Assembly (NCBI GenBank): GCA_039680605.1
Contig: JBDKTA010000034.1
Span: 1-64,000, forward strand
Direction of reading: 5' to 3'
DNA length: 64,000 nt
From: Planctomycetaceae bacterium
Lineage (GTDB): Bacteria > Planctomycetota > Phycisphaerae > SM23-33
The notes beneath the pieces are model-generated. The model saw only the letters and a program-made list of their open reading frames with translations. It had not been told where the DNA came from and ran no database searches. Numbering within the stretch: the stretch's first letter is position 1; every line of letters starts with the position of its first letter. Shown piece by piece: positions 30,165 through 34,478 of the stretch. The translations under genes and the position numbers were made by a program.

Positions 30165-30949
30165 CCTCCAGCGCGATCGACACCATGGCCGTCGAAGCCT
30201 CCGGTCTGACCAAGGTCTATGGCAGCGGCAACACCGAGGTGAACGCCCTGCGGGGCGTCGACCTGTCTCTGTCCCGCGGCGAGATCATGGCCCTGCTGGG
30301 GCCCAGCGGCGCGGGCAAGAGCACGCTGCTGGCGATTATCGGCCTCGTCACCCGCCCCACTGCCGGCGCCATCACGCTGGCGGGCCAGACCGTCGTTGAG
30401 GACGGGAGCTTTGCCGTCGACATCCGCACGTTTCGAAGGCGCCATATGGGGTTCGTCTTCCAGAAGGCCAACCTGATTCCCTTCCTGACGGCCGTCGAGA
30501 ACGTCCGCGTGGCGATGGAGATCAACGACCACTCCCCCCGCCACTCGCGGCGACGGGCGATGGAGCTGCTGGACTACCTCGGCGTCGCCGACCGGGCTGA
30601 TTACTATCCTAACATGCTTTCCGGCGGCCAGCAGCAACGCGTGGCGGTCGCGCGGGCCTTGGCCAATGAACCGGACCTGATCCTGGCCGACGAACCGACA
30701 GCCGCCCTGGACAGCGTTCGCGGCAGGCAGGTCATGGAGCTCTTCCGCAAGGTGGCCCACGAGCGCCGGGCCGGCGTGATTGTCGTGACGCACGACCACC
30801 GGGCACTGGACGTCTTCGACCGCTCACTCGAGATGGAAGACGGGCTGATCACCACCGCGAATCAACAATCGGGGCTGAACAACGCATCCACAGACCACGC
30901 CCCGGCGCCGACGATCAGCAAGAACAGCAGGCTCATCAACATGGAGTAA
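30161..30949 (+). CDS. ABC transporter ATP-binding protein (MacB/LolD-like)
   Basis: A 262-aa ATPase. Walker A is [11 protein letters not shown] (about residue 47), the signature is [16 protein letters not shown] (about 153-168), Walker B is [12 protein letters not shown] and the H-loop is [12 protein letters not shown]. The Q-loop is [11 protein letters not shown]. It overlaps the permease stop by four bases. The last 30 residues (about 232-262) are of low complexity ([16 protein letters not shown]) and are encoded opposite the end of the DoxX gene (30862-31296), an 88-bp convergent overlap. The core is complete before that tail, so the true stop may be earlier in ancestors. No terminator is seen. 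Confidence 0.9.
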
Positions 30950-31296
30950 TCCGTTCTTGCCGCGTCTTCCATCGCCCAGAACCCCCGCGACAGGAGGATG
31001 GGAATCTTGGTGGTGGCGATGGCCACGGTAATGTTGATCAACAACAGCAACGCGCAGGGACGGACCAGCAGCCCGATCAGCAACAGCAAGCCGCAGACAA
31101 CTTCGACTACGCCCACGAAAGGCCCCATGACCTGCGGAAAGGGAATCCCGATGTGCGCGAACCGGCCCGCACCCCACTGGTCAACAAAGAGGAACTTCTT
31201 CAGCCCCTCGGCGAAGAACACGCCTCCGGCCAGCAGGCGAATCACCAGAACCGCCGCCTGGGCGCGCGTCTGAAGCAGTTTGCGGATGCATGCCAT
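30862..31296 (-). CDS. DoxX-family membrane protein
   Basis: A 144-aa protein with four hydrophobic segments (FFAEGLKKFLFVDQWGAGRF, VVCGLLLLIGLLVRPCA and two more). The pattern of the DoxX family is clear: RLLAGGVFFAEGLKKFLF near the start and [17 protein letters not shown] near the end. DoxX proteins are small membrane proteins of redox-linked or uncertain function, often beside arsenic or sulfur genes. The ATG at 31296 gives a clean start; an upstream frame would begin in unrelated sequence. Its 3' end overlaps that of the ABC ATPase by 88 bases. It is transcribed away from arsR at 31670. Confidence 0.85.
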   Translation of the reverse strand: MACIRKLLQTRAQAAVLVIRLLAGGVFFAEGLKKFLFVDQWGAGRFAHIGIPFPQVMGPFVGVVEVVCGLLLLIGLLVRPCALLLLINITVAIATTKIPILLSRGFWAMEDAARTDYSMLMSLLFLLIVGAGAWSVDALFSPDC

Positions 31297-31402
31297 ATCG
31301 AATCTCGCTGGCCAATGATAGGCGGTCCGTTGGGGGATATTCTCGCGCCCGCGCGGCTGCACCACCATTTCTCAGCCGCCCTTCCCGCGCCACGGGGTAA
31401 TG

Positions 31403-31584
31403 CCTCAGTTACAGGGGGAAAGTCGCGGCGGAGGCACTAAATGAAAAAGTAATTCGTTTCTTTGAATTACTTTTTCATTTCAGGCGATGAACGAGGCCCA
31501 CGCCAAGTATTCATCAACGCCGGCAAAACGGCATTGATGAATACTTGGTGCCTCCGCCGCGACTTTCCCCCCCCGTAACAGAGG
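31403..31584. repeat. Composite palindrome forming a predicted three-way junction
   Basis: Outer arms at 31403-31437 and 31548-31584 are complementary over about 30 bases (GTTACAGGGGGAAAGTCGCG on the left, CGCGACTTTCCC on the right). They enclose two separate perfect hairpins: arms 31439-31455/31464-31480 (17 bp, AT-rich, GAAAAAGTAATTC) and 31503-31517/31534-31548 (15 bp, CCAAGTATTCATCAA). Folded, this is a stem with two side arms. It lies in the divergent gap between DoxX and arsR, so it is not a simple terminator. No coding frame is evident inside. Confidence 0.85.
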
Positions 31585-31609
31585 GGATACGCCACGGGCC
31601 GCTTTTCGG

Positions 31610-31638
31610 TTGAACTCGCCACTGCGGGAGCATATAAT
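31610..31638 (+). promoter_or_regulatory. Predicted promoter of the second arsenic operon
   Basis: TTGAAC (31610-31615) is followed after 17 bases by a perfect TATAAT (31633-31638), about 31 bases before the arsR ATG at 31670. The stretch after -10 (GTTAGTTCCCAAAGTATAGG) shows no clear palindromic ArsR site. Confidence 0.65.
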
Positions 31639-31669
31639 TCGTTAGTTCCCAAAGTATAGGAGTATGACC

Positions 31670-32038
31670 ATGAATGATGTCACGGCCATCGCCAAGGCAA
31701 TGGCGGATGTAAACCGAACGCGGGTGCTCATGTTCCTGCGGGGTGGTGAACTCTGCGTCTGCCAGATCATGGAAATGCTGCAACTGGCGCCCTCAACGGT
31801 TTCGAGTCACTTGAACGTCCTGCACCGGGCGGGCCTGGTGCAATCGCGAAAGGAAGGGCGATGGATCTACTACCGTCTGCCCGGCCGCGAGGCCCCTGCT
31901 TGCGTCAAGGCCGCCATTCGCTGGCTCCAGGAATCTCTAGCGGACGACCTTGAAGTCGCCCAGGACGCCAGGCAGGTCAAGTCCGTCTGCAAGATGAGTC
32001 TGGATGACCTATGTTGCCGGTACAAGAGCAAGGAATAG
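31670..32038 (+). CDS. arsR: ArsR-family metalloregulator (second)
   Basis: A 122-aa winged-helix repressor distinct from the first copy. The metal pair is in GGELCVCQIMEML (about residues 27-33), and the recognition helix is APSTVSSHLNVLHRAGLVQ, with wing GRWIYYRL. The C-terminus has another cluster (CVKAAIRW, KSVCKMSLDDLCCRYK), which may add ligands. AGGAG lies seven bases before ATG 31670; ATG 31664 is too close to that site. It leads the operon with arsC, acr3 and arsM. It shares little obvious sequence with the 22078 copy outside the CVC motif, so the two operons may respond to different arsenicals. Confidence 0.9.
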   Translation: MNDVTAIAKAMADVNRTRVLMFLRGGELCVCQIMEMLQLAPSTVSSHLNVLHRAGLVQSRKEGRWIYYRLPGREAPACVKAAIRWLQESLADDLEVAQDARQVKSVCKMSLDDLCCRYKSKE

Positions 32039-32040
32039 TC

Positions 32041-32486
32041 ATGGCCGGCAAACTCAAAGTCCTGTTCCTCTGCACCGGCAATTCCTGCCGCAGCCAGATG
32101 GCCGAGGGCTGGGCCAGGCATCTGCGCGGCGATGCCATTGAGGCCCACTCGGCCGGAATCGTAGCGCATGGACTCAACCCACAGGCCGCTGCAGTAATGG
32201 CCGAGGCGGGCGTCGACATCTCCGACCATCGCTCCAAGACGCTGGCGGAGGTAATGGACGTGCCGTTTGACTACGTCGTAACCGTCTGCGCCAACGCCAA
32301 CGAAACCTGCCCGGTCTTCCCCGGCCGGGCCAAGGTGGTGCATGTAGGGTTCGACGACCCTCCGAAGCTGGCTAAAAACGCCAAGACCGAGGAGGAGGCT
32401 CTGGCCCACTATCGCCGCGTGCGCGACGAGATCCGCGCGTACGTCGAAACATTGCCGCAGTCGCTTTCACGAGGACCGGACAGACC

Positions 32487-32490
<4 letters not shown>
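32041..32490 (+). CDS. arsC: Arsenate reductase, low-molecular-weight phosphatase type (thioredoxin-coupled)
   Basis: Reduces arsenate to arsenite using thioredoxin. The P-loop is [16 protein letters not shown] (Cys11, Arg17), and the resolving cysteines are in [15 protein letters not shown]. This arrangement matches the pI258 ArsC type (three-cysteine relay) rather than the glutaredoxin type. 149 aa is slightly longer than usual. The C-terminal Asp is in FDDP. An AAGGA motif precedes the ATG, and the stop overlaps the acr3 start by four bases. It is part of arsR-arsC-acr3-arsM. Confidence 0.94.
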
Positions 32491-33677
<1,187 letters not shown>

Positions 33678-33689
33678 GGAACCCGTGCC

Positions 33690-34478
33690 ATGACAACACC
33701 CGAAGACACTCATGAACTGGTGAAGAAGGCTTACGGCCAGGTCGCTGCGGGTCAGCAGTCATGCTGCTGCGACTCTGCGGCCGCCGATTCCGCATCCTGC
33801 TGCAGTAAGGGCGCCTACGTCGTTCCGGACCATCCGGTTCCCGAGTCGGAGTTGGGGCTTTCGTGCGGCAATCCGCTGGCGTTTGGCCACATCGGGCCCG
33901 GCGACGTGGTGCTGGACCTCGGCAGCGGAGCGGGCAAGGATGTCTTCCTGGCCGCGCAGAAAGTCGGCGACGCCGGCCGTGCGATCGGCGTGGACATGAC
34001 GCCCGAGATGCTGCAGCTTGCCCGCAAAAACGCGGTGAAGTTTTTCACGACAACGGGCCTGGCCAATGTCGAATTCCGCCAGGGGCAGATCGAGGAGCTT
34101 CCGGTCGAAGATGCCTCCGTCGACGTGGTGATCTCCAACTGCGTGATCAATCTTTCGCCCGACAAACCGCAGGTGTTCCGCGAGGTCCATCGCGTGCTCA
34201 AACCCGGCGGGCGAATGATCGTCAGCGACATCGTGCTCAACAAGCCCCTGCCCCAGGCAGCCTTGGACGACGCCGGACTCTATGCCGCCTGCATCGCCGG
34301 CGCGCTGCTGCGGAAGGATTACTTGCAGGCGATCCGTGACGCGGGGTTTGACCGGGTAGAAATCCTCAGCGACCACACTTATCAGGCGTCCGGCGCCTGC
34401 GACGATCCGATAGCCGCCCCCAACGCCGATGCCCTGGCAGGCGCGGCCGCGTCGATCACAGTGCTGGCGACCAAATAG
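33690..34478 (+). CDS. arsM: Arsenite S-adenosylmethionine methyltransferase ArsM
   Basis: Methylates arsenite to methylarsenicals using SAM. The N-terminus has [16 protein letters not shown] and SCCSKGAYV, followed by [14 protein letters not shown] (a key conserved Cys in CGNP). Motif I of the Rossmann fold is [17 protein letters not shown], and motif post-I is [15 protein letters not shown]. The conserved [20 protein letters not shown] holds another arsenic-binding Cys, with a further Cys in [10 protein letters not shown]. At 262 aa the C-terminal domain is short. AAGGA precedes the ATG by about nine bases. It ends the second arsenic operon, with the convergent MFS gene ten bases away. Products (methylarsenite) would be substrates for ArsP. 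Confidence 0.93.

Follow-up and report, generated by a model that had tools for sequence, protein, structure and literature searches.

MITEs are usually viewed as empty transposon ends. One of them, MITEAba12, has TIRs that resemble ISAba12 and 9-bp target-site duplications, hereafter TSDs (PMC6382973). IS66 is characterised by GTAAGCG ends and 8-bp repeats (PMC11946415), and ISDge4, from the ISBst12 group, by the TIRs GTGACTACTCAGCA/GTAACTGCTCAGCA and an 8-bp duplication (PMC12898284). Here, we analysed a palindrome found in a window of 64 kb (i.e. the whole stretch of DNA under analysis), which is likewise flanked by an 8-bp repeat. It was placed in a divergent ars promoter region by an earlier note on this DNA, and correctly so, as it lies between a doxX-like gene on the minus strand and arsR on the plus strand. 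The features of the locus are as follows.

30862-31368, minus strand: doxX-like gene.
31389-31396: left target-site duplication GCCACGGG, exact 8-bp repeat of 31591-31598, abutting the GTA/TAC ends.
31397-31590: putative non-autonomous IS66-type element (MITE) with a three-way-junction core, 194 bp, assigned from copies, ends and TSD.
31397-31437: left outer arm; its tip GTAATGCCTCAGTTAC is the TIR and its inner part GGGGGAAAGTCGCGGCGGAGGCAC the conserved outer helix.
31439-31480: hairpin A, 17-bp stem AAATGAAAAAGTAATTC / GAATTACTTTTTCATTT, loop GTTTCTTT; compensatory changes in relatives.
31481-31502: linker between hairpins A and B, varying among copies (42 % mean pairwise difference over aligned linker columns).
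31503-31548: hairpin B, 20-nt arms CCAAGTATTCATCAACGCCG / CGGCATTGATGAATACTTGG; the counterpart in G023, a genome of another genus, is TAGTATTTATCACTCC / GGAGTGATAAATACTA.
31548-31590: right outer arm, with ...GTAACAGAGGGGATAC at its end; read inward, the TIR is GTATCCCCTCTGTTAC; the arm's first base is common with the end of hairpin B.
31591-31598: right target-site duplication GCCACGGG, exact repeat of 31389-31396.
31610-31638, plus strand: sigma-70-like arsR promoter, TTGAAC-17-TATAAT (consensus scan 10/12), outside the element and given as context only.
31664-32038, plus strand: arsR.

The element runs from GTAATGCC... to ...GGGGATAC and comprises two hairpins set within an outer, roughly 40-bp inverted repeat. 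The repeat search returned an outer pair (31414-31440/31545-31571; 27 nt, 96 %), the arms of hairpin A (31439-31455/31464-31480; 17 bp, 100 %) and those of hairpin B (31503-31522/31529-31548; 20 nt, 95 %). The outer stem enclosing two hairpins and the 17 bp of hairpin A had already been described in the earlier note and were recovered here; hairpin B proved longer than the 15 bp reported for it, and the span of 31403-31584, although at a real locus, was too short, the perfect GCCACGGG repeats setting the limits at 31397-31590. The folding energy was -125.6 kcal/mol vs -55.4 +/- 4.5 for shuffled sequences (z = -15.8; 0/200 shuffles equally stable) and the other strand gave z = -16.0, so that RNA folding, a check proposed beforehand, yielded a fold far beyond chance on either strand. 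No plausible ORF was found inside the 194 bp. The scan returned no terminator-like site, in agreement with the earlier opinion that the arms are not a terminator. The right TSD ends 11 bp before the sigma-70-like arsR promoter, which is not broken by the element. As to the neighbourhood, positions 31664-34478 hold an ordinary arsenic operon, i.e. ArsR, an LMW-phosphatase-type ArsC, an SBF-family transporter (ACR3-like) and a methyltransferase (ArsM-like).

A BLAST search of the own genome, an assembly of 72 contigs and 5.23 Mb, returned 33 near full-length and several partial matches, i.e. about 40 dispersed copies in both orientations, all copy counts in this study being those of incomplete assemblies. 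When copies are oriented with hairpin A first, a near-invariant core is seen, in which GGGAAAAGTCGCGGCGGAGGCAC is followed by hairpin A (AAATGAAGAAGTAATTC), a linker that varies, then hairpin B (CAAGTATTCATCAAAGCC) and finally the complementary arm. Differences between own copies amounted to about 5-9 % in stems, 21-27 % in loops, 42 % in the linker and 64-71 % in the extreme tips as aligned, this last value being partly due to poor alignment of short tips. In L034-L040, which are short or broken, parts of this design have been lost. With a length below 300 bp, no coding capacity, TIRs, a TSD and dispersed copies, the element is a MITE by the usual definition, and the mobile, MITE-like nature proposed for it in the earlier note is thus borne out. 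An exact-pattern search of genome and viral collections and a BLAST of plasmids gave no match to the element, and no uninserted TIR palindrome that could have served as insertion target was found.

DNA searches of 40 relatives gave no match, and the relatives searched included no second genome of the own genus. Extending the DNA search to 397 genomes of the class gave a single 70 % match in another genus (G023), whose outer arm sequence differs and in which the same three helices nevertheless form. A covariance model was then built from 20 own copies and the G023 locus. Among 38 genomes of the order, its matches included numerous full copies in G023, together with about 17 in a further genome, G005; across the 397 genomes of the class, its matches were confined to the own genome, G023 and G005. 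A 21-nt match in G142 (DNA search) and a weak match in G022 (covariance model) were judged to be chance. From sequence comparison, the G023 element is certainly kin of the window element, because both hairpins are recognisable and all hairpin A stem differences between the own and G023 consensus are compensated. The G005 elements have in common with the own element hairpin A, the GAAAA motif and GACAC; since their hairpin B is weak or not clear and they lack the GTAA ends, we regard them only as probable relatives, at a greater distance, from a third planctomycete genus. Within the G005 genome, several compensated forms of the A stem coexist (CAACAAACGAAATC, CAGAAACGAAATC, TGAAAACGAAATC), and the elements at loci L187-L203 often adjoin another repeated hairpin, CGGCGACGTTCCGTCGCCGGCTAAACG.

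The two TIRs of the own element are imperfect, start with GTA(A/T) and contain CTC(A/T)G, the element ends being GTAA...YTCAG. The same motif, GTAA (GTRA) plus YTCAG, is seen in own copies (GTAATGCCTCAG / GTATCCCCTC(A/T)G) and in G023 (GTAAGAGTTCAGCC), and the tips of IS66 elements in the same order read GTAAC(T/A)CTTCAGCC. Perfect 8-bp TSDs flank four own copies, i.e. the window copy (L001), L005, L007 and L021, and L029 comes close. A score of at most 2 (mismatches, TSD and ends) was reached by 15 % of own copies vs 0.6 % with shuffled partners, a matching that permits chance alignments and in which TSD calls beyond the best five are not meaningful. In G023, whose ends read GTAAGAGTTCAGCCGTATGC and are sharp (GTAACTATTCACC... 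on one side, GTAAGAGTTCAGCC... inward from the other), TSDs with at most two mismatches were present in 14 of the 18 copies having recognisable ends, for 1.1 expected.

A PF03050 search of the order retrieved single-ORF IS66 transposases lying between inverted ends, e.g. GTAACACTTCAGCCGTATGCAAC (L258); the IS66 element at L259 has the ends GTAACTGTTCAGCC and a perfect 8-bp TSD. For comparison with these ends, the IS66 end motif has one match in the whole window. The ORFs of L258 and L268 are named IS66 family transposase by NCBIfam. Additionally, a composite in G023 (L228) combines a left end of IS66/ISBst12 type (GTAACACTTCAGCCGTTTGCAAC) with the right end of the element, and has TGAAGAAA on both flanks; one enzyme thus seems to have acted on ends of both kinds at this single locus. 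PF03050 genes numbered three in G005 and none in the own and G023 assemblies, which are both incomplete. Besides the absence of such genes, other observations count against an IS66 assignment: the match of own to IS66 tips is confined to the short motif GTAAnnnYTCAG, recognisable ends with a TSD are kept in only about five own copies, and the extreme tips differ by 64-71 % between own copies as aligned. Based on the GTAA...YTCAG ends, the 8-bp duplications and the L228 composite, we nevertheless consider it very likely that the palindrome is a non-autonomous IS66-family (ISBst12-like) MITE with a folded core, moved in trans. A MITE of the IS630/Tc1-mariner kind, for which only TA is duplicated at the target, had been suggested by the GTA ends and was ruled out by the 8-bp TSDs.

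These duplications also bear on a different mode of movement, in which a REP/REPIN- or TIRYT-type element would be moved as single-stranded DNA by a Y1 transposase recognising its hairpins. The arms of the G005 elements contain GGGGACAC, which fits the GGGGWSAS motif of TIRYT repeats (PMC3733652), and the own genome has 15 Y1 transposase genes, several of them flanked by repeats or palindromes of their own. On the other hand, element sequence adjoined none of 24 Y1 loci (15 own and nine in G005/G023) and neither a GTAG nor a CGTC tag occurs in the element alignment. Y1 transposition is not known to make target duplications, and since 8-bp duplications are present in own copies as well as in G023, this explanation is largely refuted and we hold it to be very improbable.

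At L125 (G000:C39, about 1057-1396 and 2030-2410), a Y1 (RAYT-like) gene lies between complex palindromes (GGGTGCCACGCACAACTCCGTTGTGCGTG...GGGACACGCACAGCGGAGCTGTGCGTGGCACCC), each half of which is a hairpin and whose halves are mutually complementary, i.e. a REPIN-like unit with its own enzyme. At L124 (G000:C4:19439-19612 region), a Y1 transposase gene stands amid several copies of GTGTGGCATGGGCGTCTCGCCCATGCTC, and repeats similar to the latter occur in tandem at L074.

Across genera, the three helices are conserved by paired changes, while the linker and extreme ends diverge. In the alignment of own copies with G023 (A3), double changes affected 10 pairs, whereas shuffles gave 2.5 and sliding the structure no more than 3; A3 was made with MAFFT and not fitted to structure, but the structure itself derives from it. 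In the alignment of G023 and G005 model matches (A4), 45 pairs showed double changes vs 26 shuffled and at most 18 slid, A4 being model-fitted and hence leaning to structure, with some loci counted on both strands. Such strong covariation would also be expected from a structured or cis-regulatory RNA (or transcription insulator) that had spread in the genome, the host selecting its folded transcript. The 33 own copies examined are all intergenic, and 18 of them lie between divergent genes (p about 3e-4 vs an assumed 25 %), a count that relies on a home-made codon scorer as gene caller, which missed doxX, added by hand. This bias was given no weight, because G023 shows none (1/13). One RNA strand under structural selection is expected to favour G.U; mismatches in own copies, read on the hairpin-A-first strand and leaving out one polymorphic C.A column, comprised 19 G.T vs 21 A.C, i.e. 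no strand bias, which makes a one-strand structured RNA unlikely. Moreover, the Rfam search gave no match, copies occur in both orientations relative to genes and no terminator was found at the window copy. The structured RNA put forward in the earlier note was therefore set aside, and host selection of a folded transcript appears very improbable.

Both selection on DNA structure and correction of one arm against the other fit the covariation and the lack of strand bias. According to the latter, the ends would still be those of an IS66-type MITE, and the covariation and perfect arms of the core would come from replication template-switching (quasipalindrome correction). Arms are indeed perfect in many copies and arm correction is known to act on any long palindrome; it leaves unexplained, however, why stems differ between copies by only about 5-9 % vs 42 % in the linker, and why parts of stems A and B are unchanged between genera. 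That stem sequences diverge little from copy to copy speaks for some sequence constraint too. We regard arm correction as a possible origin of the covariation, short of a probable one. With equal reserve, we tentatively propose that a folded multi-arm DNA junction, beyond the TIRs, may be a required, evolving part of this IS66-type MITE lineage, with compensatory helices across genera and hairpins gained at unpaired junction positions (three-way to four-way). The loops of hairpins A and B match each other as complements in the own consensus (GTTGTGT/ACACAAC), but kissing between them was rejected: by eye, they do not co-change among copies, and in G023 the complementarity is absent.

Measured arm to arm, the copies in G023 span about 140 to 308 bp. 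Additional hairpins occupy the loop of A (CACCTGCCTGCCGGCAGGCAGGT, or a larger one, about 65 nt), the linker (about 110 nt, giving a four-way junction) or both, positions at which they leave the junction itself undisturbed. At L072 of the own genome (G000:C25:94091-94251), tips near-identical to those of the window element (TAACGCCTCAGTTATG / CAATGCCTCAGTTACATG), with a flanking repeat that is near-perfect by eye, enclose a cargo of GC-rich hairpins from a separate, abundant repeat family (GTCGCGGGCGTCCCGCCCGCG). The earlier idea of a MITE that collected other repeats is thus apt for the lineage, owing to the extra modules in G023 and the cargo of L072. It does not extend to the inner hairpins of the window copy, which are not late insertions: both are present in all near full-length own copies and in G023, there with compensatory changes, and no own copy was found in which the outer helix closes directly, the hairpins being absent. 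The observation named in the earlier note as refuting a single evolved junction, namely other genome copies lacking the two hairpins at this place, was therefore not made.

We infer the following course. Insertion would duplicate 8 bp of the target, and the element would be mobilised in trans, probably by an ISBst12-like IS66 transposase missing from the own assembly. Between the tips, the core would fold, either single-stranded or as a cruciform, into a three-way junction of outer helix and hairpins A and B. Paired base changes maintain these helices among copies and in another genus, the most likely reason being that folded DNA aids spread (e.g. during synapsis or strand transfer) or that the arms are corrected against each other at replication. 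If true, the interior fold of a MITE family would be constrained over genus-level distances. The family would make it directly testable whether DNA secondary structure contributes to DDE transposon movement, and shows how planctomycete multi-hairpin palindromes can grow by nesting.

Compared with known systems, the element resembles REPINs (REP doublets forming hairpins, PMC3116915) as a dispersed palindrome folding as a unit, but it has no REP tag, RAYT partner or REP doublet structure and does have an 8-bp TSD. It shares long inverted repeats with TIRYT-associated repeats (PMC3733652), including a GGGGWSAS-like motif in its G005 version, whereas no Y1 gene adjoins any copy tested and TSDs are present. 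A limited search of the open-access literature gave no description of a three-armed folded core in known transposons of the IS66-MITE kind. The ISBst12 group of the IS66 family (e.g. ISDge4) has similar GTRA...YTCAG tips and 8-bp target duplications; the window element differs by the lack of a transposase gene, its length (194 bp vs about 1.5 kb) and its multi-hairpin core. Finally, it agrees with bacterial MITEs (MITEAba12, PMC6382973; RUP, NEMIS, ERIC and Nezha, PMC3733652) in being a non-coding element of less than 300 bp with TIRs, a TSD and intergenic dispersal, and departs from MITEAba12 by its IS66-type tips, a covarying three-way-junction interior kept across genera and the hairpins added in its relatives.
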